NCBI RefSeq assembly: GCF_028767125.1
Contig: NZ_JAKCWP010000013.1
Span: 1-64,000, forward strand
Origin: Chelativorans sp. YIM 93263
GTDB taxonomy: Bacteria; Pseudomonadota; Alphaproteobacteria; Rhizobiales; Rhizobiaceae
Length of the DNA stretch: 64,000 bases
Direction of reading: 5' to 3'
In this document: positions 13,762 to 61,445 of the stretch, in pieces
Position numbering within the stretch: the stretch's first letter is position 1
How the letters are laid out: each line of letters begins with the position of its first letter
The notes under the pieces: generated by a model
What the model was told of the DNA's origin: nothing
The model's database searches: none
What the model saw: the letters and a program-made list of their open reading frames with translations, nothing else
Position numbers and translations under genes: made by a program

Positions 13762-14898
13762 ATGACATTTGATCTCGTCCTCACCGGCGGCCGCGTGATC
13801 GATCCCTCGCAATCGATCGACGCCGTCACCGATGTCGGCTTTGCTGACGGCAAGGTGGTGGCCGTCGAGGACGGCCTCGCGCAGCGTACCAACACGATCC
13901 GGGACGTCACCGGGAAGATCGTTACGCCCGGCATCATTGACCTGCACACCCACGTCTATTGGGGCGGGACGTCGCTCGGCATCGATGCCGAGGAGTTCGC
14001 GCGCACCAGTGCGGTGACCACCAGCATCGACACCGGCAGCGCCGGGCCGGGCAATTTCGCCGGATTCCGCAAGCACGTGATAGAGCCGTGCGAGACGCGC
14101 ATACTCGTCTACCTGCACGTGTCCTTCGCCGGCATCTACGGTTTCGATCCGGTGGTAATGGTGGGAGAAAGCCACGATTTCCGGCTTATGGCACCCAGCC
14201 ATGCACGACGGGTAATCGAGGAAAACCGAGACGTCATCGTCGGCATCAAGGTGAGGATCGGGCGCCATGCCAGCGGACCGCAGGGCATTGCGCCTCTCGA
14301 CGTGGCGCTCGGTCTGTCCGACGAGACCGGACTGCCGGTCATGTGCCACATCGACGAGCCGCCGCCGTCCTACGAAGCGGTCGTCTCCAAGCTGCGCAAG
14401 GGCGACGTGCTCACCCACTGCTACCGGCCGTTCCCGAATGCGCCGGTCAAGGGCGACGGGACGATCAAGGCCGAGGTGCTGGCGGCGCGCGAGCGAGGAG
14501 TCTATTTGGACATCGGACACGGCATGGGATCATTCTCCTACCGAACTGCCCGCGCCATGCTCGCCGGGGGCTTTCCGCCGGACACGATTTCTTCCGACGT
14601 CCATGCCTTCTGTCTGGAGGGCCCCGCCTACGACCAACTCACCACGATGAGCAAGTTTCTTGGCCTCGGCATGCCACTCGACGAGGTGATTGCACGCTCG
14701 ACGGTGAAGGCCGCCGAGGCGATCAACCGGCCGGAACTCGGCACCTTGCGTAAGGGCGCGGTCGGTGACGCCTCCATCCTTTCGCTCGTTGAAGGCGAGG
14801 ACCAACTTGAGGACGTGGAGGGCGAGGTGATGACGGTCAATGAGCGTCTGATGGCCGAAGGCGTCGTCGTTGGCGGAGAATGGTGGCACCCGAAATGA
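13762..14898 (+). CDS. Amidohydrolase-superfamily metallohydrolase (COG3964, Atu3266-like)
   Basis: 378 residues. Amidohydrolase metal-site residues are all visible: H62 and H64 (DLHTHV), K163 (GIKVRIG, the carbamylated lysine), H196 (CHIDEP), H219 (THCY) and D279 (SSDVHA). Similarity is to the group often misannotated as dihydroorotase or deacetylase; an Agrobacterium member (Atu3266) was reported to hydrolyse acetylated alpha-hydroxy acids. Located 40 nt after ridA and overlapping the creatininase-like gene by 4 nt, so it is co-translated. Likely removes an acyl group or opens a ring of the imported substrate; the substrate is unknown. Confidence 0.85.
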   Translation: MTFDLVLTGGRVIDPSQSIDAVTDVGFADGKVVAVEDGLAQRTNTIRDVTGKIVTPGIIDLHTHVYWGGTSLGIDAEEFARTSAVTTSIDTGSAGPGNFAGFRKHVIEPCETRILVYLHVSFAGIYGFDPVVMVGESHDFRLMAPSHARRVIEENRDVIVGIKVRIGRHASGPQGIAPLDVALGLSDETGLPVMCHIDEPPPSYEAVVSKLRKGDVLTHCYRPFPNAPVKGDGTIKAEVLAARERGVYLDIGHGMGSFSYRTARAMLAGGFPPDTISSDVHAFCLEGPAYDQLTTMSKFLGLGMPLDEVIARSTVKAAEAINRPELGTLRKGAVGDASILSLVEGEDQLEDVEGEVMTVNERLMAEGVVVGGEWWHPK

Positions 14899-50101: not shown

Positions 50102-50166
50102 TGGGAGACACTGCTTCGCGCCAACGGCAATACACGTGGCTGCGTCACGCCCCGCAAGGCGAAGCG

Positions 50167-50182
50167 TGGTGCCCCTGGCCGG
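50167..50182. repeat. Left attachment site (att copy of tRNA-Leu 3' end)
   Basis: TGGTGCCCCTGGCCGG, identical to the tRNA-Leu(CAA) 3' end at 61361-61376. Lies 180 bp before the integrase start, in the 250-bp gap after the GNAT gene, which otherwise holds no gene. Confidence 0.82.
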
Positions 50183-50300
50183 CACATATTTTATTATCCC
50201 GGTCGTGCTACTGTTCTCAACAATGCGTGCGTATGCTTGCGTTCGCGCGAACTGAGAGATTTTGGACGTCCCCAAACATCAACATTCTACAGAACTCTAA

Positions 50301-50358
50301 AGGTGGATCGAAAGGTGGATCCTGATATAGGGGTGTTGAGGTTCTTACAGAGGTGGAT
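50301..50358. repeat. AGGTGGAT repeats near left end, possible integrase arm sites
   Basis: AGGTGGAT occurs at 50301-50308, 50313-50320 and 50351-50358, between the attachment site and the integrase coding region. The same octamer recurs near the right end at 61297-61304. Confidence 0.5.
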
Positions 50359-50361
50359 GCC

Positions 50362-51558
50362 ATGCGTGCCCTCAACAGACTTAGTGCCGTTTCCGTCAAG
50401 AAACTGGCGCCGGGAAAATATGCTGACGGAGGTGGCTTGTGGCTGCTCCGGCGTGAAGACGGCGGTGGTCAATGGTTCCTACGGTACACCATTCACGGCA
50501 GACGGCGGGAAATGGGCCTTGGCTCCACTGAAGTCAGCTTAAAGGATGCGCGTGAGAGCGCGGCGAAGTGGCGTGCGGTGGTGCGCGCCGGAAAAGACCC
50601 GATCAAGGAACGGGATCGTCAGAAGCGGGAGGCAGCGCGCAACCTGCATATCCTGGCCGACATTGCTGAAGATGCTTTTGATGCCCGGAAGGCGGAACTA
50701 AAAGGGGACGGAAAAAAAGCGGGCAGATGGTTCACGCCGCTGGAACTGCATGTGCTGCCAACGCTGGGAAGGTTGCCCGTTAGCGAAATCGATCAGCGGG
50801 ACATACGCGATGCGCTTGCACCCATTTGGCACGCAAAAGCTGATACCGCACGCAAGGCGATGAACCGGTTGAATCTTTGCCTCAAGCATGCCGCCGCGTT
50901 GGGCTTGGAGGTGGATTTGCAGGCCACGGAAAAAGCAAGGGCACTGTTAGGCAAGCAGCGTCACACGCCAGAGAGCATCCCTGCCATGCCGTGGCGACAC
51001 GTGCCCGACTTCTATGAGGCGCTGGTTGAGAAAGACAGCATCACAAATTTGGCCTTGCGGCTATTGATCCTCACCGGGATGAGATCGGCGCCGGTCAGGC
51101 ACATCCACGAAAGTCAGATTGACGACGACGTGTGGATCATACCGGGTGAGGCGATGAAGGGCCGCAAAGACACCACCAAGGAATTCAGGGTGCCCCTATC
51201 AGAAGAAGCTGAGGCCGTAATTGAGAAGGCGGAGGAATATTCGCGTGACGGCTATCTGTTCGCCAATCCTAAGAAGGGTGTCATCAGCGACATGGCGATG
51301 AGTCAGCACATGAAGCGTGCGGGATTGAAGTATAGGCCTCATGGCTTCCGATCGTCACTGCGGGACTGGCTAGCGGAGACGACAGATGCACGGCATGAGG
51401 TAGCCGAAATGATGCTGGGCCATACCACCGGCTCAAGCGTTGAACGGGCGTACCGGCGCACTGACTTCCTAGAACCCAGGCGTGAACTTCTTGAGCGCTG
51501 GGCAAGGCATGTCACGAGTCGCGTTGGGAAGAAATACCGACGAAGGGTCAGGCTCTAG
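50362..51558 (+). CDS. Tyrosine-type integrase (P4/DUF4102 family)
   Basis: 398 residues from ATG 50362, preceded by GAGGTGG. N-terminal DUF4102 arm-binding domain (GKYADGGGLWLLRREDGGGQ, then RREMGLGSTEVSLKDARE), a core-binding domain and a catalytic domain with Arg in ILTGMRSAPVRHI, HGFRSSLRDWLAE, LGHTTGSSVERAYRRTD with the nucleophilic Tyr. P4-type integrases usually target tRNA 3' ends, which agrees with the tRNA-Leu repeats flanking the island. Confidence 0.93.
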   Translation: MRALNRLSAVSVKKLAPGKYADGGGLWLLRREDGGGQWFLRYTIHGRRREMGLGSTEVSLKDARESAAKWRAVVRAGKDPIKERDRQKREAARNLHILADIAEDAFDARKAELKGDGKKAGRWFTPLELHVLPTLGRLPVSEIDQRDIRDALAPIWHAKADTARKAMNRLNLCLKHAAALGLEVDLQATEKARALLGKQRHTPESIPAMPWRHVPDFYEALVEKDSITNLALRLLILTGMRSAPVRHIHESQIDDDVWIIPGEAMKGRKDTTKEFRVPLSEEAEAVIEKAEEYSRDGYLFANPKKGVISDMAMSQHMKRAGLKYRPHGFRSSLRDWLAETTDARHEVAEMMLGHTTGSSVERAYRRTDFLEPRRELLERWARHVTSRVGKKYRRRVRL

Positions 51559-51836
51559 CTATAGGGTGGCGGTTGGCATGGGGAAGTCCATGGCGGCCTT
51601 TGTGCGATATGCGCACCAGCCCGCGCGCAAGACTTTTTCGCTGTGGTGACAATACGGGCCAGTTCTTGACTAGGCTAGAAAATTAGTCGGTTAAGGAAAG
51701 CCTGTTTCCGGCATTTCCTGTATGCGTATAACCCACTGAAATAATATTTATTCTCAGCAGAAAAGCCTCGCGCGCCAAGCTTCAACATCCAGAGACGTAT
51801 AGTTCTATGTGTAAGCCACTCACAAAGGAGGTTGTC

Positions 51837-52226
51837 GTGGCCCTATACAAGCGCATACGTCTCGAAAAAAACCACACCCCCAAGCCCCGACGCAGAGAAC
51901 GGGTAAGGCTCACTGAGTGGGACCGATTTCTCGATCCAGCTGAATGGAAGAAGCTTGATGCTTTGCGCCCGCTTCCGCTCAACTGGAAGCGGAGGCCCGG
52001 ACTGATGTTCCCGTTGATGCTCAGGGCCAATCCTGAGTCGTTCTTTCTGACAACGAAGCAGGCAGCCGAATTCCTTGGGAAAAGCGACAAGACGTTGCAC
52101 AATTGGCGGGCGCAAGGGATCGGTCCCAAGTTTGTCAAAGTGGAGCGCCGTACGGTGCACTACAACGTAGCTGACATGCTAAACTGGCTGGTTAAGCTGC
52201 GAGCCAAAAGAGAGACTCAACGATGA
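51837..52226 (+). CDS. HTH (AlpA/MerR-like) DNA-binding protein, possible excisionase
   Basis: 129 residues from GTG 51837, directly downstream of AAAGGAGG; an in-frame ATG at 51807 precedes the Shine-Dalgarno and is less likely. The N-terminal half is basic (KPRRRERVRL). A helix-turn-helix of the HTH_17 type lies at about 70-120: FFLTTKQAAEFLGKSDKTLH and RRTVHYNVADMLNWL. Such proteins act as excisionases or regulators in integrative elements. Its stop overlaps the next gene as ATGA. Confidence 0.72.
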   Translation: MALYKRIRLEKNHTPKPRRRERVRLTEWDRFLDPAEWKKLDALRPLPLNWKRRPGLMFPLMLRANPESFFLTTKQAAEFLGKSDKTLHNWRAQGIGPKFVKVERRTVHYNVADMLNWLVKLRAKRETQR

Positions 52227-53137
52227 CCATTGCCATTCAGGAATGGGATGGCCCAGGCACAGGCTTCAGCATCATCGACACGGTGTCCTATTTGGACACC
52301 GTGGAGGTGATTATCAGTTTTCCTTTGCCGGTCAGGCTGCTGAGTAAGCTGCGCAAGCGTGTGGGGAAGCGCATGGGCGTGCGTGATGCGACCCGACCCG
52401 ACAAGGCCAACTTGGATAAGAAGCATGCGTATGGCAAGGTAATTGCCATTGCGCAGCCCACGAGCGAAGAACTGCGGCTCATCCTGGAAATGTGCGGATC
52501 CAACTGCCTTGTTCACCGGGTCGATGTGGCGTGCGATTTCCACCACCGCACGCTGGCGGAAGCGCAGAACTGTGGTGAATTCCTTCGTCGGCGGGGTTGT
52601 CAAAAATGGCGGGGGAATAGGCGGCGCAATGCCACTGAGAACATCACCTATTGGTCAGTCGATGCCGGCGTGTCCCGCAACATTGCCCTCTATGTAGACA
52701 AACCATCACGCAAAAATGGGAGGCCTTGTACACACTGGGAAATGCGTTTTGTAACCGCCGCATCGTGCCGAAGAGCCGGGCTGAGCGACTTGCGTATACT
52801 GCTGGGCGAGGTGGATGCCCTCAAGTTGCTCAAGCACGAAGCATGCCTTCGAACCCTCAGCCGACACCGCTACGAAAAATCGCTCGAGGAAATAGCACGA
52901 TGCACCAAGCGTAGGTACCGGCGCAGTTTTGAGAAGAAGACGGTGGCGGACGTAGAGAAGCGTGTTCAGGGCCTGATATCTGCAGCCCTGCAAAACCGAC
53001 AGTTCGACTACAACGAAGAAGCGATCCACCTTGTTCCTGCGCAAGAAGTTTACGATCGTGTTCCCTTGCTACGCAAAACGCTCGTCGAAGCGGGGAAGTG
53101 GGAAGAACTGGCACCAGTGATCAGGTGGTTAAGGTAG
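52223..53137 (+). CDS. Replication-initiator-like protein of an integrative element
   Basis: 304 residues, translationally coupled to the HTH gene. Visible features: DTVEVIISFPLPV, VHRVDVACDFHH, a WSVDAGVSRNIALYVDKP strand and GRPCTHWEMRF, a pattern like rolling-circle or phage replication initiators, which recognise an origin and nick it. I cannot place the nicking Tyr with certainty. If right, the island can replicate after excision. The assignment is by pattern and position only. Confidence 0.5.
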   Translation: MTIAIQEWDGPGTGFSIIDTVSYLDTVEVIISFPLPVRLLSKLRKRVGKRMGVRDATRPDKANLDKKHAYGKVIAIAQPTSEELRLILEMCGSNCLVHRVDVACDFHHRTLAEAQNCGEFLRRRGCQKWRGNRRRNATENITYWSVDAGVSRNIALYVDKPSRKNGRPCTHWEMRFVTAASCRRAGLSDLRILLGEVDALKLLKHEACLRTLSRHRYEKSLEEIARCTKRRYRRSFEKKTVADVEKRVQGLISAALQNRQFDYNEEAIHLVPAQEVYDRVPLLRKTLVEAGKWEELAPVIRWLR

Positions 53138-53843
53138 CACTCCTGCAATTTTCAAAATAACACCTTGATACCACACACAAAACGGCACCCACGACGAAGA
53201 GAAATTTCCATTGAAACGTAATACCTTTAGTTGGAGTTTATTCCCCTGACGCGATAGAACAAGAGACGAACAGGATATACCACGACAGCTGCTCAGCGGC
53301 CCCATGAAACTGCCAAACCATCGCCTGCCCAATGCTCTTGTTCCTGATTTAGACGGTGCCGCCTTCTTCTTCGTGGCAAGCTGAAAGCCCAGAACCTTCA
53401 TCACGTGAAGAATGGTCAACAGCCCGCGATGAAGAAGGGACTTCTGAGCTATGGGAGCAGCGATGGTTGGCCTTGCTGCTTTATGGCGACATTTGCCCAG
53501 AGACACGCGATGTTGCCGATCAGGCTGGCAATCACCGTCAAAGCGTCGAACGGCCGTCAGCGGCAAAAAATACGTCCGCTGTGGCCTTACCCCACCGAAC
53601 GAGGGACGGGGAGTGCGATTTGGGCAAAGGGGGGAGGTACCTTCTGCCGGCGCCCCGCCGATGTGCGGCACTGCCGCAATACTCGTTTCTTCATGGCTTG
53701 CCGCTTAGGCCGTTCACGGCCATGGCGCGCGTAGCCGACATTTGACCACTAAGCGGCAATACCGCCACGCCGCTACCCGAACCCTCGCCCAAACTAAGAA
53801 TCACTCAGACACGCTTGCCTTTGGCGGACACGGGCATCTGGGG
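53138..53843. other. Region with degraded phage-like sequence and repeat copy A
   Basis: About 700 bp without a gene I can support, although ORFs up to 180 codons exist on both strands. Right part holds flank copy A (53736-53805). A hydrophobic stretch (VIASLIGNIACLWANVAIKQ) is readable on the minus strand near 53550-53470 and may be a relic. Confidence 0.4.
53736..53805. repeat. Flank repeat copy A
   Basis: Begins CGACATTTGACCACTAAGCG and is imperfectly repeated at 55734-55805 (copy B) and 56250-56315 (copy C). Copy A and B also share the adjacent sunset-domain 3' end, so the full homologous block is about 155 bp. Confidence 0.72.
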
Positions 53844-53912
53844 TCAACCGCGGGCTCTGCGCCAACCGGCTTGGCGGGCTTCAGCCTGAGAACGCGGCCA
53901 GAGTACCGCAGG
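53844..53912 (-). pseudogene. Remnant of a sunset-domain gene 3' end
   Basis: Minus-strand codons read SQAEARQAGWRRARG then TGA (53844-53846), matching the end SQADARQAGWRRAHR of the intact gene at 55832-56155. The rest of the gene is missing; the fragment begins right after the stop of the Abi/HEPN gene at 53915. Confidence 0.7.
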
Positions 53913-53914
53913 CG

Positions 53915-54781
53915 CTATTCACCAACCACGGCTGCCTGTGCTGCCTTCATTTCTGTTTTGCCTTCACTCTCACGGGCTTCTTTGGTTTTTTCTATAATCT
54001 TTTGAAATTCAGTAGTGGCGGCCGATAGGCTTTTAAGGTGTGGCATCATGAGCTTAGCTAAAGGTGTCTCATCTGTTGGTCGTCGCGAGCCGAGGTTGCG
54101 GGAGATAAATTCTATTGCGTCCATAGCTTCTCTAAGACGCTTTCCAAAAACCGGTTCGTGATGAGCAAGACGATTTCTGGTCTGATATATGACCTCCAGA
54201 TTGTCAGCAATCCGGGCCCGCGAATATGTCTTGTTTGGAAAAACCTTCTTCAATGACCGCTTCCAGAGCGTCTTCTCATAATTTTCTGAAAACAATCTCT
54301 TCCAGAAGTATATGGTTAGCTGTGCCACAACCTGTCCCTCGGAGACGGGTATTTCCCCTTGTCTGCGAATGGCTAGCCTGGAGCGCTTAATGTTCGCTGG
54401 CACTCCTTGAGGGAAGGCGAGCGCATCTAAAGCTAGTTTCTGTCCGTTGTTGAGCTTGGCATATGCAGCACGCCTCGCCATTGCCTCAGCCTTTACTATA
54501 TTCCGCTGCTCAGGCTCTGCCCAACTGAAGTTCGATGGAGGGCTGCGCAAACAGTCTTGAACTCCCAGATCAGCTGAGATCCTTCGGCAAATAGCGTTTC
54601 GAAGGGAGACTTCTATTACACCGATAACCGCAGTAAGTGCACCCGATAGCCCCATGGCCGCCTGATGCAGCTCTATTGCGTCAAGATCTGCATCGGCAAT
54701 CCTTTTGAAGGTGCCGAGCCGTTCAGCCGACATAAGCCCCCTGATGGCAGCAACATCTCCGTCGGTAAGCCTTCTTGACAT
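53915..54781 (-). CDS. Abi-family (Abi_2/AbiD-F-like) HEPN protein
   Basis: 288 residues from ATG 54781; ATG 54790 is also possible, both after AAGGAGGG. Abi_2-type features: LSGALTAVIGVIEVSLRNAI, FWKRLFSENYEKTLWKRSL and a C-terminal YQTRNRLAHHEPVFGKRL, where RNRLAH is the Rx4H motif of HEPN ribonucleases. Abortive-infection proteins of this kind are thought to stop phage growth by RNA cleavage. Lower GC than flanking core genes; stands alone between phage-like pieces. Confidence 0.82.
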   Translation of the reverse strand: MSRRLTDGDVAAIRGLMSAERLGTFKRIADADLDAIELHQAAMGLSGALTAVIGVIEVSLRNAICRRISADLGVQDCLRSPPSNFSWAEPEQRNIVKAEAMARRAAYAKLNNGQKLALDALAFPQGVPANIKRSRLAIRRQGEIPVSEGQVVAQLTIYFWKRLFSENYEKTLWKRSLKKVFPNKTYSRARIADNLEVIYQTRNRLAHHEPVFGKRLREAMDAIEFISRNLGSRRPTDETPLAKLMMPHLKSLSAATTEFQKIIEKTKEARESEGKTEMKAAQAAVVGE

Positions 54782-54870
54782 TCCCCCCATCCCTCCTTAT
54801 TTTTTTACTCGAAACGTCGGGATTTATGTCGGCAGCGCGCCTTGCTCGTGACGGACACCCGACGCCCTAC

Positions 54871-54897
54871 AAAAAGGCCGCCCAACGCGGCCTTTTT
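54871..54897. terminator. Bidirectional rho-independent terminator
   Basis: Stem AAAAAGGCCGC / GCGGCCTTTTT with a 5-nt loop and A and T runs on either side, so it could work in both directions. It lies between the Abi/HEPN gene start and the gene at 55101. Confidence 0.82.
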
Positions 54898-55100
54898 CAT
54901 TTTACCGACGCAGCCATTCAAAGCCAACCCTCGCATCGAATAAGTATTTGCCAGCCCATCCGCATCTTGCTCACCCTAAGACTGAGGCGAATTGGCGTTC
55001 GTCTCACTCCAAGTTCCGGGCCGGCGATCCGCTTCGCTCCCTAAACCGAATATTTATCGGGCCTGATTATCTGTCCCTGTGAGTAGGGAAGGGGCAGAAG

Positions 55101-55430
55101 ATGCAGAACGCAATTACAGCTGTCGTTTTCTCCGTGGTCCTCGGTGCGATGGCTTGGGAGGGATACAAATACGTCGATCACCATTGGCCGACCTGTTCAA
55201 TGCTTCACTCGGAGCAGCAGAAGCTGGAGCGCGAACTGGCAGAACGAAGACGGCTCGAAGAGGCAGGCCATATTCAACCCGGTCCCGATCGCAGAATACT
55301 TCAAGCGGTCCGCCAAGATCGAGAGCTGCCTACATACGAGGAATACAAGGAGGGGCAGGAGTGGAGGAGCGAAGCGACTGAGCGGCTTTTTGACCGCTGG
55401 GAGCGGGAGAAGGAATGTGGCCTAGTTTGA
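55101..55430 (+). CDS. Small membrane-anchored phage-like protein (109 aa)
   Basis: 109 residues after the ribosome binding site AGGGAAGGGG. One N-terminal helix (AITAVVFSVVLGAMAWEGY), then a charged coiled-coil-like segment (SEQQKLERELAERRRLEEAG) and a DRxLPTYEEYKEGQEW tail. The layout recalls small phage lysis-accessory (Rz-like) or superinfection proteins, but I do not recognise a family. Confidence 0.6.
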   Translation: MQNAITAVVFSVVLGAMAWEGYKYVDHHWPTCSMLHSEQQKLERELAERRRLEEAGHIQPGPDRRILQAVRQDRELPTYEEYKEGQEWRSEATERLFDRWEREKECGLV

Positions 55431-55683
55431 TAGAACTTCGCTCTAGAAATCTCGGAGCTGCTTGTAGCATTTGAGTTCGCTTCACCTCGGAAATCGGTAA
55501 TGATACGTCGCCTGTACTCCGCGCTATCAAAGCAGGGGTTTCATAGGCCCTAACCAGTTGTTTGGTGAATGCATCAACACGCGGATCTTCATCCATAGTG
55601 AGGCCTCCATCATCTTCGATGGAACTCCTGTTTGTCGTGCTTCTTCCCGGGCGTCGAATTTTGTCGCGCCAATATTTACTCAA
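55330..55683 (-). CDS. Hypothetical protein (117 aa), uncertain
   Basis: An ORF overlapping the previous gene by 100 bp on the other strand. The first 90 residues (DEDPRVDAFTKQLVRAYETP, then VSLPISEVKRTQML) look like real protein, while the last part is the mirror of the other gene. No family found. Confidence 0.4.
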   Translation of the reverse strand: MSKYWRDKIRRPGRSTTNRSSIEDDGGLTMDEDPRVDAFTKQLVRAYETPALIARSTGDVSLPISEVKRTQMLQAAPRFLERSSIKLGHIPSPAPSGQKAAQSLRSSTPAPPCIPRM

Positions 55684-55733
55684 CTTCTTAATGGATTACC
55701 GCTGGGGCCGCTTAAAAGGCCATAACGCGCAGG

Positions 55734-55805
55734 CGACACTTGACCGCTGAGTGGCATTATCGCTCAAGCCGCACCCGACCCCACGCCCAAGGTTGCAAAC
55801 GCCCA
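55734..55805. repeat. Flank repeat copy B
   Basis: Begins CGACACTTGACCGCTGAGTG, imperfect copy of A (53736) and C (56250). Just downstream of the sunset-domain gene on its strand. A GCCCATTTATGGGC hairpin (about 55801-55814) next to it may terminate that gene. Confidence 0.72.
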
Positions 55806-55831
55806 TAAATGGGCTTTCGCTAAGCAAATGG

Positions 55832-56155
55832 TCAACGGTGGGCTCTGCGCCAACCGGCTTGCCGGGCATCAGCTTGAGAACAAAACCAGCGTTCACCGTG
55901 AATTGGTGAGACGCGGGTAGCGGAATAATACCGCTGGCCGGGGACGTGATAGATGCGCTCACCGGTTCCTACTGAAATGTTGCCCTTGATGTTGCAGCCG
56001 GAACCGGGAAGCATGGCGGTAATGGCATCAACGGGAAGACCACCAGTGGAAGCGCCTGCTCCCAGGGCCCCGCTCAACATCAAGACTACAGGCAGTGCGG
56101 GAAGCTTCTTGAACCAATGCGACTTGCCGGGAGCTTTTGCACGTGACCACGCCAT
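55832..56155 (-). CDS. Membrane-anchored sunset-domain protein
   Basis: 107 residues: an N-terminal hydrophobic helix (LPALPVVLMLSGALGAGAS) then a sunset domain, CNIKGNISVGTGERIYHVPG, followed by GERWFCSQADARQAGWRRA. Sunset domains occur in thermonuclease-like and phage or secreted proteins; function unknown. Flanked by repeat copies B and C, and its 3' end is duplicated at 53844. Confidence 0.82.
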   Translation of the reverse strand: MAWSRAKAPGKSHWFKKLPALPVVLMLSGALGAGASTGGLPVDAITAMLPGSGCNIKGNISVGTGERIYHVPGQRYYSATRVSPIHGERWFCSQADARQAGWRRAHR

Positions 56156-56249
56156 GGAGGCGCCATACCAGACCCGGCTTACGATTCAGGAAAAGTGGTG
56201 CCTGCAATTTTAGGGAAATGCTGCACGAAAGTGAATACACTTGGCGGTG

Positions 56250-56315
56250 CGACATTTGCCCCCTAAGCGGCAATACCCTCAGCCCGCCCCTTGCTTCCAC
56301 GCCAAACCTGCAAAC
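56250..56315. repeat. Flank repeat copy C
   Basis: Begins CGACATTTGCCCCCTAAGCG, related to copies A and B, followed by the inverted repeat AACGCCCGCAGGCGGCGTT. No sunset tail accompanies this copy. Confidence 0.62.
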
Positions 56316-56610
56316 GCCCGCAGGCGGCGTTGCCTTGGTCAGACAGGGCACGCGTAGTTGGTGTGGTATGAAGAACAGCGCGACGCGCCGCAGCTGAGCG
56401 CCAATGGCAGTTGCTCTGCTCCTGTACCAACGTGATTATTGGGGGTAGTGCTGGAATCGGCAAGGACTCTCGGGATCGCATCAGGCTTGGGCGAGGAAGT
56501 TGGTCTACAGCGACGAACGCGGTGCGCAGGATCAGGAACACAAAGAGATTGGCGCTACCCTGCGTTGATTGTGACGACAGTTAGGAAAGACGTAGTTTTG
56601 GGGGGGGAAT
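56316..56610. other. Upstream region of the Gabija operon
   Basis: About 295 bp with no gene I can support. Should contain the promoter for gajA. A run GGGGGGGGAAT just before 56611 acts as its ribosome binding site. Confidence 0.4.
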
Positions 56611-58344
56611 ATGGCGGTCATCCGCAAGATTGAAATCAGGAATTTCAGATCGATTAAGTCACTCGACTGGTGGCCAACTGACGGCGTGAACTGCCTGATA
56701 GGTGCCGGCGACTCCGGCAAGAGCAGCGTGCTGGACGCCATAGAATACTGCCTCACGACCCGCCGTTCCCTTTCTATCAGCGATTCTGACTTCCACAACC
56801 TCGACGTTGAACAGGACATTTCCATCACCTTGGTTCTGGGTCGCCTGGATGACAGTCTCAAAAGCTACGAGACATATGGCGACTTCCTGTCCGGTTTGCG
56901 CCGTGACAACGGTGCCATTGAGGAAGAACCCGGACACGGGCTGGAAACAGTGTTGAGAGTCAACTTCTCTGTCTCAGGAGATCTTGAACCCAAGTGGCGG
57001 TTATTGTCGAAGCGGGCAGAGGACAAAGGACTGGAGCGCGGCCTCAATTGGGGAGATCGTCTTGCATTGGCGCCAACACGACTCGGCGCTTGGACAGAGC
57101 ACAACCTGGCGTGGCGGCGGGGCTCGGTTCTAAATCGGCTGAGTGACGAGAAGCCTGATGCGTCGAAGGCACTTGCTGACGCTGCACGCGATGCGCGGAA
57201 GACTTTTGGTGTCCAAGCCGAAAAGCAGCTCGGCGATGCACTTGCGTCCGTTAACAAGGCCGCCCGTGAGCTAGGGGTCCCAATTGGGGCCTCGGCAAAA
57301 GCCATGCTCGACACCCATTCGGCTTCAGTTAATGGCGGGACGATTGCACTTCACGATGAGCTCGGTATTCCGCTTCGCACATTGGGGCTTGGTTCAACCC
57401 GTTTGTTGATCGCCGGCTTGCAACACGAGGTATCGGATAGGGCATCAATCCTTCTCGTTGACGAGATCGAACACGGCTTGGAGCCGCATCGCATCATGCG
57501 GCTTGTTAGCTCGCTCGGGGCAAAGACCAAACCGGCACCGCAGCAGGTGTTCGCAACATCGCATTCCCCGGTCGTACTGCGGGAGCTCAGCTCGGATCAG
57601 CTGATTGTCCTCCGCCGATCGGGGGATGGTAGTCATGTGCCCCTGGCTATACCGGGAGAAGCACAGGGAACATTGAGATCGTTTCCAAACGCGTTCCTCG
57701 CACCATCGGTGTTGATTTGTGAAGGTGCATCAGAAATCGGTTTCATTCGCGGTTTTGATCAGTTTTGTGTCCAAAACGGTCACATCTCACTGCAAGCTGC
57801 AGGCTTGGCAATGGTGGATTGTGGAGGCGGGCACGCGGATCACCTCTATCAGCGCGCGAAGACCCTTGCCAACCTCGGATATCGAGTTGGCGTGTTCCGC
57901 GACGATGACATCAAGCCCAGCGCAGCGCTGCAAGCTGAAGTCGCGAGATTGGGTGGGATAACCTTTACTTGGGAGGATGGGCAGGACATCGAAACCGCGA
58001 TCGTGATGAACGTAAGCGAAGGCATATTACTGCGATTAATAGACTACGCTATTGTACTCCATGGATTTGATTTCGTCGGCGATCATATAAAATCCGCCTC
58101 TGGAGGGATCGAGACCCTAGAGAATCTTCGCGGGCTCTTATATCCGCAACAGCACACCATTACGGCCGATCAGCGGGCAATCATTGCACGCGCTGCCGGT
58201 GGCAAGAATGCCTGGTTCAAATCCGTGGGAGCCATGGAGTCTGTCGCCCGGGAGATCATCGCCCCAAACTTCGACGGTGTAACCGAGGATTTTAAGGCGA
58301 AGGTCAACGCGCTTCTCGTTTGGGGGCAAACTTTTTATGGATGA
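56611..58344 (+). CDS. gajA: GajA-like OLD-family ATPase/TOPRIM nuclease (Gabija)
   Basis: 577 residues. ABC-type ATPase: Walker A GAGDSGKSS (31-39), Walker B LLVDEIEHG (about 282-289) and a His loop in ATSHSPVV (about 317). C-terminal TOPRIM domain: LICEGASE (368-375) with the catalytic Glu, and FRDDDI (429-434) with metal-binding Asp. In Gabija, GajA is a nucleotide-sensing DNA-nicking nuclease that assembles with GajB. Length and pairing with a UvrD-like helicase gene overlapping by 8 nt fit Gabija well. OLD nucleases also occur in other systems (PARIS, retron), but those lack a helicase partner. Confidence 0.88.
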   Translation: MAVIRKIEIRNFRSIKSLDWWPTDGVNCLIGAGDSGKSSVLDAIEYCLTTRRSLSISDSDFHNLDVEQDISITLVLGRLDDSLKSYETYGDFLSGLRRDNGAIEEEPGHGLETVLRVNFSVSGDLEPKWRLLSKRAEDKGLERGLNWGDRLALAPTRLGAWTEHNLAWRRGSVLNRLSDEKPDASKALADAARDARKTFGVQAEKQLGDALASVNKAARELGVPIGASAKAMLDTHSASVNGGTIALHDELGIPLRTLGLGSTRLLIAGLQHEVSDRASILLVDEIEHGLEPHRIMRLVSSLGAKTKPAPQQVFATSHSPVVLRELSSDQLIVLRRSGDGSHVPLAIPGEAQGTLRSFPNAFLAPSVLICEGASEIGFIRGFDQFCVQNGHISLQAAGLAMVDCGGGHADHLYQRAKTLANLGYRVGVFRDDDIKPSAALQAEVARLGGITFTWEDGQDIETAIVMNVSEGILLRLIDYAIVLHGFDFVGDHIKSASGGIETLENLRGLLYPQQHTITADQRAIIARAAGGKNAWFKSVGAMESVAREIIAPNFDGVTEDFKAKVNALLVWGQTFYG

Positions 58345-59752
58345 AACTGAAATCCTCAATAGTGACAGAATCAGCATAACAGCTCCCGCGGGATGCGGCA
58401 AAACTCACTTGATAGCTGCGTGCTTGCGAGCGTCTGCTGACAAGAAACCCTCTTTGGTCCTGACGCATACAAACGCTGGTGTTGCTGCTCTACGGTCCCG
58501 GCTCGATGCAGCGGGCGTCGCGCGCACCCGCTATCGCATCACTACGATCGATGGCTGGGCGTTGCGACTTGTGGGCACGTTTCCGGGTCGAAGTGGACAG
58601 TCGCCTAGCATCTTGGCTCTCAAGAATCCTGGGTTTGACTACCCGGCGATCCGTGCTGGCGCACTCAGTATCATCGACGGTCGGCACGTGCAGGATGTGC
58701 TTGAGGCGACGTATTCGCGAGTGATTGTCGATGAGTACCAGGATTGCATCATCCAGCAACACGGAATGATCATGCGTTTGTCCGAAGTCTTGCCAACATG
58801 CGTCCTGGGGGACGCCATGCAGGCGATATTCGGTTGGGGTAGAAACGTCCTAGTCGATTGGACAAAAGAAGTAGAGGCAACTTACCCGCCGTTTGGACGA
58901 CTGGATACGCCGTGGCGGTGGGACAACTCTGGGTGTTCTACCCTCGGGAAGTGGCTACTTTGGGCTCGCGGAGCGCTACAAACTGGTGCACCGATCGATT
59001 TAAGAAACGCACCGGAAGAAGTAACATGGGTGCAGGTTTCCGGCCCGGATGACGTACAAGCGTTGACCAGGGCGGCTTATACCGCTTCGCCAGTAGCGGG
59101 AGGTGGTGCGCTTATCGTCTGCGACAGTCGGCTGCCCCGCCGGCATCGTGAAATTGCAAGTCGTGTAAAGGACGCTGTCGTCGTTGAGAACGCCGATTTA
59201 TCTGATTTCATCCGGTTCGCTGAACAGTTTAATTTTGCGGCGCCGACTGCTGCAGACGATCTTATCGATTTCGCCGCCAGCACGCTCACCGGCGTCGGCG
59301 CGGCCCAACTCAAGCAGAGACTAAAGATTTTGCTAGCTGGCAGAGCTCAAAAAGCACCAAACGATGTCGAGCAAGCGGCGGTCGCCTTTGCTCGAAATCC
59401 TGTACCGAATTCTGCGGTGGAGTTGCTGGTCGAGATCAACCGACAGTCTGGTGTCGCACCCTTGCGGCCATCGATATTGCGCGCGTGTATTCAAGCGCTG
59501 AATGGTTGCGTTTCACCCATCGAGTTCTACGAAATGGCGGTTCGCACTCGCGAGCAGTCACGCGTGCTTGGTCGCACTATTCCTCGTCGCGCCGTTGGCA
59601 GCACGCTGCTGTTGAAAGGTCTTGAGGCCGATGTTTCAATCGTGCTTGATACCGAATCGCTCGATGCTCGGAATCTCTATGTAGCGATGACGCGCGGCTC
59701 AAGACGCTTGGTCATCTGTTCAACTAGTCCAGTAATCACACGTCAGATATGA
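58337..59752 (+). CDS. gajB: GajB-like UvrD/REP-type helicase (Gabija)
   Basis: 471 residues, overlapping gajA. SF1 helicase motifs: I APAGCGKTH (16-24), II VDEYQDC (131-137), III LGDAMQAIFGW, V LLKGLEADVSIVLD and VI VAMTRGSRRLV (449-459). GajB senses DNA ends or ssDNA made during infection and activates GajA. The compact size, short of the full UvrD length, is typical of GajB. Confidence 0.88.
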   Translation: MDETEILNSDRISITAPAGCGKTHLIAACLRASADKKPSLVLTHTNAGVAALRSRLDAAGVARTRYRITTIDGWALRLVGTFPGRSGQSPSILALKNPGFDYPAIRAGALSIIDGRHVQDVLEATYSRVIVDEYQDCIIQQHGMIMRLSEVLPTCVLGDAMQAIFGWGRNVLVDWTKEVEATYPPFGRLDTPWRWDNSGCSTLGKWLLWARGALQTGAPIDLRNAPEEVTWVQVSGPDDVQALTRAAYTASPVAGGGALIVCDSRLPRRHREIASRVKDAVVVENADLSDFIRFAEQFNFAAPTAADDLIDFAASTLTGVGAAQLKQRLKILLAGRAQKAPNDVEQAAVAFARNPVPNSAVELLVEINRQSGVAPLRPSILRACIQALNGCVSPIEFYEMAVRTREQSRVLGRTIPRRAVGSTLLLKGLEADVSIVLDTESLDARNLYVAMTRGSRRLVICSTSPVITRQI

Positions 59753-59877
59753 CAAAGAATGGCGCACAGCCATGACTGGTAACAAGGCTTTCGCTGTGTC
59801 TGGCGATGTCCGCTTTTGGATGGCGACTAAGCCGATCTCTATATGCCGTTGGCCAGCCCGTCTGGTTGCACATCGTT

Positions 59878-60054
59878 TCACCTTGGTGAATTGGGCCGGT
59901 AGAATGGGCGACCGCTGTCGCGTAATTGCAGCCCCAAGCTCGACAACTTGATATTGCTTGCGCGCCGAAGCAGCGGTGCCAAAAACAACATGGGCGCAGC
60001 AACTGCAAAGGTAATTGTCAGTGGAACGCTCAGCGTCGAGAATAACTCGGCCAT
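59878..60054 (-). CDS. Small membrane protein (58 aa) next to Abi-alpha-like gene
   Basis: 58 residues from ATG 60054 with GGAGAAG eight bases upstream. One or two hydrophobic segments (STLSVPLTITFAVAAPMLFL, then a polar tail). Follows the Abi-alpha-like gene on the same strand after 78 nt. An extended TTG start at 60114 is possible. No family recognised; may be a membrane partner. Confidence 0.55.
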   Translation of the reverse strand: MAELFSTLSVPLTITFAVAAPMLFLAPLLRRASNIKLSSLGLQLRDSGRPFYRPNSPR

Positions 60055-60132
60055 TTGTATATCTTCTCCGTCTATTAATCGAATAGAGAAGAACGATGGC
60101 ACAGTGAAACCCAAAATGATTGCGAAAAATAG

Positions 60133-60708
60133 CTACATAGTGGTCGTAGGGAGGCTGCGGCGAGTAGCCTGACGCCAGTCATACGCGAATATCAAACCGA
60201 GGCGCTGAAATCTCTCTGCGCGTATTGGATCTAGTTCCTCGCGTGGAAACCAGCTTGAAGGCAAATCCAAGAGGACACGGGCATCGCTCCTGTTCATCTG
60301 CTTCAGCAAAGCGACTAGTTCCTCGGTCTCGTCGTCCTTGTAGATTCTGCCTAGTATGCCTTGCCAGAGCGCCGCTAGATCATTTTCCCGCTCCGGATCA
60401 ACCTTCTGAGCCTCCTCCGCCCAATCCAACATCGCCGCAGCCTGCCGCTCTGTAGGCTCCTTAGCCTCGCCATCGATGTGTTCGACCGTTTTGACCTTCT
60501 CAACATGAGCGTTAATGTTCTTGGCGCGCTTGCTATTCACCCATTCCTGCATGCGCTCGCCCCAATACACCCCCAAGACGTCGAAGGCGGGACCAAAGAG
60601 CGCAGTGAAAGGCTTGCTGTTGGCGGCACCGACCAGTGCACCAGCTGTACTTGGCAGGCCCTCGTCCGGCTCTTCGTCCGCCGTCTCTGCCATTGCTTTG
60701 TCAGACAT
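60133..60708 (-). CDS. Abi-alpha (DUF4393)-like protein
   Basis: 191 residues with GGGGGAG upstream of ATG 60708. A helical N-terminal region (FGPAFDVLGVYWGERMQEWV) and a domain with DLAALWQGILGRIYKDDET and ALLKQMNRSDARVLLDL, the pattern of DUF4393/Abi-alpha proteins found in phage-defence loci. The mechanism is unknown. Convergent with the Gabija operon. Confidence 0.62.
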   Translation of the reverse strand: MSDKAMAETADEEPDEGLPSTAGALVGAANSKPFTALFGPAFDVLGVYWGERMQEWVNSKRAKNINAHVEKVKTVEHIDGEAKEPTERQAAAMLDWAEEAQKVDPERENDLAALWQGILGRIYKDDETEELVALLKQMNRSDARVLLDLPSSWFPREELDPIRAERFQRLGLIFAYDWRQATRRSLPTTTM

Positions 60709-61360
60709 TTATTTACTCCCCCAAGCTCTTAGCAATGTATCAATACATGGATCTGCTTCAAGGGGAGGAGTGCGCTTGAGTCTCCGGAACACTTACTATT
60801 CTGTGCCTTGCGGCTTTCGAATTAAGAATAACGCCCGCAACGGCTATATTCGCGGAGGAAACCGAGCGTTGGCAGCCGTGTCGGTCAGCTTGCTAAGGGC
60901 ATATTTGACGTCATCATAGAAGGCCGGAAGCTGGCGCCGGAGTTATCCCGTGGCCCAAAATAGGCGAGCGGACCAACCATTGGCCCATTCGCCCGGTCTG
61001 TTTTGTGTCCACGCCGTCAAGGTATCGCCGTTCCATGCTGCCCGCAAATCGAAGATTGCTCCACACTGCGCTCCGTTGCGTCCTCCGGGGCGGCCTAACC
61101 TTAACGCGAAGTGCGAGCGCCGCAATCGCAAAACGTAACTTTTATGGAGGTCACCATGAACAGATCATCACCCTCCTGCGCCGCACCGACCAATCGATGG
61201 AAGAAGCTGCCAGCCAGTCTTCAAGAAGCACCTACATGGTGAACTGTAGCTGTTCACACGAAAAGAAGGCTACCAAGCGTCCTAAGGTGGTTTCTCAGGT
61301 GGATGGAAATCCACAAAATAAGCCTATCCCATTGAAAAGTAGTTATTTTCAAGAAATCTA
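60709..61360. other. Right end of the island, no confident gene
   Basis: About 650 bp with no supported gene. A short ORF at 61156-61242 follows a good ribosome binding site (TATGGAGG) but encodes only 28 residues. A longer frame nearby (HEQIITLLRRTDQSMEEAA) vaguely recalls a transposase start and may be a relic. Confidence 0.4.
61285..61314. repeat. AGGTGGAT and inverted copy near right end
   Basis: AAGGTGG at 61284-61290, AGGTGGAT at 61297-61304 and the inverted repeat GTGGATGGAAATCCAC at 61299-61314, close to the right attachment site. Matches the octamer repeated near the left end, so it may be an integrase or excisionase arm site. Confidence 0.45.
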
Positions 61361-61376
61361 TGGTGCCCCTGGCCGG
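61361..61376. repeat. Right attachment site within tRNA-Leu
   Basis: TGGTGCCCCTGGCCGG, the last 16 nt (CCA end to acceptor and T-arm edge) of tRNA-Leu(CAA). Identical to 50167-50182. Confidence 0.82.
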
Positions 61377-61445
61377 ACTCGAACCAGCACTCCTTGCGGA
61401 AACCGATTTTGAGTCGGTCGCGTCTACCAATTCCGCCACAGGGGC
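61361..61445 (-). tRNA. tRNA-Leu (CAA), island attachment site
   Basis: Minus-strand tRNA with acceptor GCCCCTG, anticodon loop CTCAAAA giving CAA, a long variable arm typical of Leu, T-loop GGTTCGAGTCC and an encoded CCA at 61361-61363. 85 nt. Its 3' end is duplicated at the left island boundary. Confidence 0.95.

Follow-up and report, generated by a model that had tools for sequence, protein, structure and literature searches.

Much phage defence is carried by integrase-only islands. Islands of this kind have been described in Escherichia coli, where the authors call the mode of movement not clear (PLoS Genet 2023, PMC10121019). Here we describe an element in a 64,000-nucleotide stretch of Chelativorans sp. 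YIM 93263 (contig NZ_JAKCWP010000013.1, positions 1 to 64,000; hereafter the window), from a source genome of 4.25 Mb in 27 contigs. The element lies at 50167-61376, abuts a tRNA-Leu(CAA) gene and belongs to the known class of integrase-only defence islands; its ends, its empty site and an attachment layout that recurs among relatives of its integrase are defined here to the base. Like the E. coli islands, it combines an integrase with defence genes (Gabija appears in their Fig 3 legend), core-gene flanks and no known transfer genes, whereas it differs in its host class and in carrying a helix-turn-helix (HTH) gene and a Rep-like gene; the likeness is one of gene content, not of compared integrase sequence (PMC10121019).

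The Pseudomonas intY islands I23, I44 and I55 occupy the transfer-messenger RNA (tmRNA) gene; one is moved by a jumbo phage and another carries Gabija (PMC12595487). They share with the window element a tyrosine integrase, an AlpA-type HTH protein, a direct repeat of an RNA-gene end (14 bp in theirs), defence cargo and a lack of autonomous transfer genes, and I23 carries Gabija as the window element does. They differ in using tmRNA rather than tRNA-Leu and in having AlpA at the opposite end, and this parallel too is one of architecture, not of aligned sequence (PMC12595487). Phage-inducible chromosomal islands (PICIs) are likewise small integrase-driven elements, many of them in tRNA genes. 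A common bacterial attachment site (attB) is presented as the unifying principle of PICI integrase clades in the set studied, with the exception of a tRNA-Phe group whose integrase is very similar to one specifying another site (Tommasini 2023, PMC10111431). In contrast, the clade described here spans five tRNA genes. Phage-related sequences inserted in tRNA genes have also been surveyed in Sinorhizobium meliloti, and the accessible portion of that survey mentions tRNA-Leu(CAA) only in a remark on sequence variants (PMC11476347). We found no description of the present integrase clade or of its attachment layout in the open-access literature searched.

Boundaries and empty site of the element

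ARAGORN places an intact tRNA-Leu(CAA), with CCA encoded, at 61361-61445 on the minus strand. The last 16 nt of this gene form the tRNA-side attachment core (61361-61376, minus strand), and an exact direct repeat of them forms the integrase-side core (50167-50182, plus strand). Read as tRNA structure, the 16 bp cover five nucleotides of the T stem (3' strand), seven of the acceptor stem (3' strand), the single discriminator nucleotide and the three of CCA. With the base composition found here, 1.3e-5 exact copies of the 16-mer are expected in 11.4 kb on both strands, and this figure together with the empty sites described below led us to reject a chance origin of the repeat. Counting one core copy, the element is 11,194 bp long. 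A tyrosine integrase sits at the end distal to the tRNA; an earlier, sequence-only reading of this DNA had proposed both the exact 16-bp ends and this distal position, and the coordinates bear out both. G+C per kb is 0.51-0.58 inside the element and mostly 0.56-0.66 outside it, with one outside kb at 0.525, so composition is only a weak sign. A megablast search of plasmids returned no whole-element relative, the sole match being one 40-bp piece at the tRNA.

That reading had also proposed looking for an unoccupied site in related genomes, which we found in two of the 15 same-genus genomes compared (G001-G015). When 1 kb of each flank was joined at 50166/61361, the query aligned as a single gapped piece in G007 (75%) and G009 (74%), both of which carry a tRNA-Leu identical to that of the window; the nine bases that precede the core match the window in G007 and do not in G009. 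These two genomes show the unoccupied site, and the window shows the filled attB. Elsewhere in the genus, the distance between the tRNA and the left flanking gene is 1.7-3.5 kb in five relatives (G004, G005, G006, G010 and G015), 8.6 kb in G008 and about 34.5 kb in G012; the gene was not found in G013, and the flanks fall on different contigs or places in G001, G002, G003, G011 and G014. By tblastn (E<1e-4), no relative of the window integrase was found in L067-L080, the stretches fetched from the genus.

From the integrase-side core inward, the gene order is integrase, HTH_17, Rep-like, Abi_2/PD-T4-5-like (minus strand), a 109-aa open reading frame (ORF), gajA, gajB, Abi-alpha-like (minus strand) and the tRNA. 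These eight ORFs were scanned against four family libraries, shorter and overlapping frames lying outside the scan. The 401-aa tyrosine integrase (50353-51558, plus strand) reads inward, away from its own core, and contains complete domains (Pfam PF13356, PF22022 and PF00589; phrog_1 3e-44). The earlier label of a P4-type integrase holds insofar as this is a three-domain tyrosine integrase; the P4 part of it is loose, since no P4 satellite gene was seen. Next to it lies a 139-aa HTH_17 protein (51807-52226, plus strand; PF12728 1.2e-8), a candidate excisionase or regulator by its match to phrog_66 (excisionase and transcriptional regulator, 1.1e-8). The third gene encodes a 304-aa protein (52223-53137, plus strand) whose start overlaps the HTH stop and which matches no family above cut-off; the label Rep-like comes from motifs only, Rep function not being established.

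We regard it as very likely that the 11,194-bp element is a genomic island integrated site-specifically at tRNA-Leu(CAA) by its tyrosine integrase, a reading supported by the exact tRNA-tail repeat, the empty sites in G007 and G009, the complete integrase domains and the near full-length GajA and GajB. The integrase would have recombined the 16-bp core on a circle (attP) with the same 16 bp at the 3' end of tRNA-Leu(CAA) (attB), so that one end now holds the intact tRNA and the opposite end a 16-bp duplicate of its tail. Candidate arm sites, made up of paired GGTGG motifs to either side of the core, are probably bound by the integrase. The neighbouring HTH_17 protein is the probable directionality factor, and the Rep-like protein may copy the circle after excision. 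Transfer would need another vehicle, such as phage particles, a conjugative partner or natural uptake, because none of the eight scanned ORFs matched transfer machinery. The benefit to the host would come chiefly from Gabija and the HEPN-like Abi protein.

The same tRNA-Leu is occupied in G012 (C32) by an island of ~34.5 kb (L067 3256-20000 and L068 1-17867) with ORFs that read by eye as Trb/TraG-like and with no relative of the window integrase (tblastn E<1e-4). Beside the flanking gene, its copy of the tRNA tail spans 53 bp, which, together with the Trb/TraG-like ORFs, suggests that a different recombinase may act at this tRNA.

A recurrent attachment layout in the integrase clade

A pattern-based genome scan returned 14 integrase loci: two from Mesorhizobium (best segments at 83 and 81%), nine from Rhodobacterales and one from another bacterium (64-67%), and two partial ones. 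As the nearest named integrases are those of Mesorhizobium, a host within the Hyphomicrobiales is likely. In a 297-genome sample of the order, 21 matches besides the window's own reached E<=1e-60, five of them with 52-62% identity over nearly the whole length and one (G122) with 49%. Layout was counted in 18 loci (the window, L053-L064 and L108-L112), leaving aside the partial integrases L065 and L066 and the 36-49% relatives. Nine of the 18 could be delimited, namely the window element, L053 (15.8 kb), L055 (10.8 kb), L058 (35.7 kb), L059 (18.7 kb), L063 (10.5 kb), L108 (15.7 kb), L110 (14.9 kb) and L111 (45.9 kb). In all nine, the integrase is distal to the intact tRNA and the core is the tRNA tail. 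The match between core and tRNA, counted from TGG, is exactly 16 bp in seven elements, 19 bp in L111 and 15/16 in L053, and three of the seven carry two to three extra matching bases before TGG. Cores besides direct repeats were located by seeking TGGTGC before the integrase, a procedure that biases towards that start.

Among the nine undelimited loci (L054, L056, L057, L060, L061, L062, L064, L109 and L112), a tRNA tail lies on another contig for L054 (Thr-CGU, with one mismatch) and L057 (Leu-CAG), L056 and L112 are short contigs, and the L109 stretch begins too close to the integrase. ARAGORN called no tRNA in any of the nine stretches fetched, so none of them shows the integrase beside an intact tRNA; as to layout, all nine are counted as undecided. 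In the uncounted Roseisalinus locus L066 (10001-13138), a tRNA-Leu(GAG) lies 3 kb downstream of the partial clade integrase, also distal.

The pattern GGTGG-N5..9-GGTGG occurs as two pairs in the 64-kb window, both strands considered, and both fall within the ends of this element; shuffles of the element give an expectation of 0.08. The two candidate integrase arm sites have the form GGTGG-N7-GGTGG and lie on the plus strand, one on the integrase side at 50302-50318, 120 bp in from the core, and the other on the tRNA side at 61286-61302, 75 bp inside the tRNA end. Across the delimited elements, an exact pair recurs on the integrase side in 7/9, at 110-139 bp from the core, and on the tRNA side in 6/9, 73-76 bp in from the end of the tRNA. 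Both arms of L063 carry GGGGG halves, as if the two candidate sites had changed together, and one exact half is kept on the tRNA side in L108 and L110 and on the integrase side in L111. Across whole genomes, the pattern turns up about as often as its reversed control (25 vs 24 in G007, 22 vs 20 in G009, 6 vs 11 in G432); it was therefore rejected as a stand-alone detector, and only position and recurrence count as evidence.

The tRNA gene used differs among close relatives of the integrase, and the layout of their attachment sites hardly changes. The targets are Leu-CAA in the window, Phe-GAA in L055, Leu-CAG in L063, Leu-UAA in L111 and Thr-CGU in L053, L058, L059, L108 and L110. In the integrase tree, the window sequence, in tRNA-Leu, groups with the two Mesorhizobium integrases (100/100), one of which, L053, is in tRNA-Thr. 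L055 (Phe) pairs with L058 (Thr; 100/98), and L059 (Thr) pairs with L057 (98/98), the core of which equals the tRNA-Leu(CAG) tail on another contig. Eleven of the 16 inner branches are unresolved, so the tree does not fix the number of target changes. Williams (2002) reportedly found that members of an integrase subfamily share a fixed position within the tRNA gene; in the present clade, close relatives likewise share the position, but their tRNA genes differ.

We propose tentatively, and with slightly less than even confidence once the undelimited loci and the PICI exception (PMC10111431) are weighed in, that this alphaproteobacterial integrase clade moved among tRNA genes with little change beyond the 16-bp core, keeping the arm sites and the distal layout. 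If so, the integrase would read arm sites and a tRNA tail at a fixed place rather than one attB sequence, and a single insertion system would serve islands of 10-46 kb in which replication and cargo genes, defence included, are interchangeable.

Defence genes and other cargo of the element

GajA, the ATPase-TOPRIM nuclease of Gabija, is encoded at full length (577 aa; 56611-58344, plus strand; PADLOC PDLC04168 3e-215 over 1-571; PDB GajA chains 1.4e-6) and is overlapped by gajB, which encodes a 471-aa UvrD-like helicase (58337-59752, plus strand; PADLOC PDLC04173 4e-175 over 3-468). Pfam returns AAA_21 and UvrD-helicase for the pair, with OLD-like_TOPRIM at 20.2 bits, below its cut-off of 23.2. 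With both subunits near full-length, adjacent and overlapping, comparison with known Gabija (GajA + GajB) revealed no difference by sequence; the pair is complete by homology, and its anti-phage activity is predicted. Family matches thus confirm the Gabija assignment made at the outset, as they do that of the HTH gene. gajA relatives are present on 293 plasmid records, the best at 77% over part and 76% over the whole (Agrobacterium plasmids), and matches at E<=1e-80 occur in only 2/384 other sampled genomes of the class. GajA relatives with 63-77% identity lie on plasmids of Agrobacterium, Dinoroseobacter and Pelagibacterium.

On the minus strand, 53915-54790 encodes a 291-aa protein with PADLOC matches to PD-T4-5 (1.5e-10, spanning residues 18-229) and AbiD (2e-4); Abi_2 (5e-4, 20.8 bits vs 25.6) and HEPN_RiboL-PSP (0.006) both stay below the Pfam cut-off, and a sequence search of the PDB gave no match. 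Its translation contains RNRLAH, which we take to be a HEPN-like motif. The gene thus reads as a weak Abi_2/PD-T4-5 relative, and the Abi label first given to it is weakly borne out. The 109-aa ORF (55101-55430, plus strand) has no match in the four libraries.

The Abi-alpha-like gene is a 191-aa ORF (60133-60708, minus strand) ending at an in-frame stop, beyond which similarity to one relative runs on in frame to about 59914. By tblastn, the match to L115 (E 1e-33) extends past the stop and that to L116 (E 4e-13) ends before it. Since the frames that hold the relatives in G203 and G135 stay open over 308 and 314 aa, and similarity to the first continues past the stop, the gene is probably interrupted, a sequencing error being possible. 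Abi_alpha (PF14337) scores E 0.21 and 12 bits against a cut-off of 29, and the AlphaFold model was dropped (pLDDT 38). The names Rep-like and Abi-alpha-like, both inherited from the sequence-only reading, thus find no family above cut-off.

A repeat block at 53736-53904 is similar to 55734-55892 and 56250-56320 (repeat families D1, D2 and D7). In translation, one of the blocks resembles the last part of a small exported 'sunset'-type protein, and 55832-56155 has no Pfam match; the three blocks lie between cargo modules and may mark module exchange. A short frame near the tRNA end (61130-61240) appears to resemble the start of an IS3-type OrfA. By arithmetic on the coordinates, 36% of the element lies outside assigned genes. 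Because of this share, because three of the eight ORFs resemble mobility or replication genes and because the Abi-alpha-like gene has an in-frame stop, the claim that the element is devoted to phage defence is too strong.

Alternative explanations and the mode of movement

The order integrase, HTH, then replication-type gene is usual in phage satellites. The element could accordingly be a PICI- or P4-like satellite with an integrase, AlpA-like HTH and Rep backbone, carried by the particles of a helper phage. This is possible, though we lean away from it. Elsewhere in the clade, Toprim and DUF3987 genes occur in L063 and L108, very large proteins of L108 and L110 look virion-internal (by eye, not by family assignment), and a Pseudomonas tmRNA-type island is carried by a jumbo phage while its sister island has Gabija (PMC12595487). 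However, none of the eight scanned ORFs matches a packaging, capsid-remodelling or primase family, and there is no Rep homologue in 50,697 phage records or in a pattern-based scan of viral contigs. More widely, searches of plasmids, phages, viral contigs, 397 order genomes and 376 class genomes, genus and family not being searched separately, returned only the Rep-like protein itself and one 54-position fragment. The protein is 29% identical (E 9e-33) to a Mesorhizobium gene behind that genome's integrase, and L054 alone among the clade loci searched has a homologue. Rep as a shared backbone gene of the clade was rejected because the 354-aa protein at the same position in L053 has no similarity to it.

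Rep-type relaxases are known from integrative mobilizable elements, and on that model the Rep-like protein would be a relaxase and a co-resident conjugative element would mobilise the circle, the G012 island with its Trb/TraG-like ORFs being a possible helper of that kind. We consider this unlikely: no conjugation family, neither relaxase nor type IV secretion system, was matched among the eight scanned ORFs, in agreement with the initial claim that conjugation genes are absent, although a Rep-like relaxase is possible and an origin of transfer (oriT) was not sought. Less probable still is a former island, now fixed and decaying, for while the in-frame stop in the Abi-alpha-like gene, the repeat blocks and the 36% outside assigned genes would fit it, the integrase and HTH genes, gajA, gajB and the core and arm pair at each end all look complete.

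Several points nevertheless weigh against the preferred reading of a site-specifically integrated island with a clade-wide attachment layout. Excision and anti-phage activity are steps that we infer, and the Abi-alpha-like gene and repeat blocks suggest erosion. In the clade, the L111 integrase (G087) carries an in-frame TAG, the Leu-CAG tail for L061, on another contig, differs from its core at 1/16, a no-mismatch pattern search found no tRNA end equal to the core-like sequences of L060, L062 and L064, and the tRNA-end search gave no match in G042 (L112). The arm pattern occurs 10 times genome-wide in G000 against 8 for the reversed control. For the Rep-like protein, homologue searches returned only itself in the 397 genomes of the order and nothing in plasmids or phages, and its AlphaFold model failed (pLDDT 44), with no family match to a rolling-circle Rep of gene II/X type. 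The models of this protein and of the Abi-alpha-like protein were too poor for a fold search.

Cargo across the clade

We scanned selected ORFs of six relatives alongside the window, seven elements in all with L058 and L111 left out; the relatives contributed 20 scanned proteins, 10 of which, with other ORFs, were also run in Pfam. Clear defence systems are present in 2/7 elements, Gabija in the window and a type II restriction-modification system in L055 (MvaI/BcnI endonuclease and C5 methylase). L053 carries a REase-ARP endonuclease by Pfam, with no PADLOC match, and L108 an M78 peptidase matching the capP and RmrA models, which is not a system alone. L059 (read as L123) encodes trypsin- and subtilase-like proteins that match subtilase, LmuA and Avs1b models, L063 adds to its Toprim and DUF3987 genes two regulator-like proteins with weak CARF-model matches, and two proteins tested from L110 gave no match. 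Given two clear systems among seven elements and varied other content, defence is one cargo among others in this clade.

Within the tRNA-Phe element L055, ARAGORN calls a tRNA-Ile, and there is a resolvase-like ORF (13954-14819), perhaps a nested insertion. In integrase-forward orientation, L108 (6669-13190) and L110 (6402-12515) encode proteins of 922-1247 aa that appear virion-internal by eye; if they are, both sister elements would be satellite- or prophage-like.

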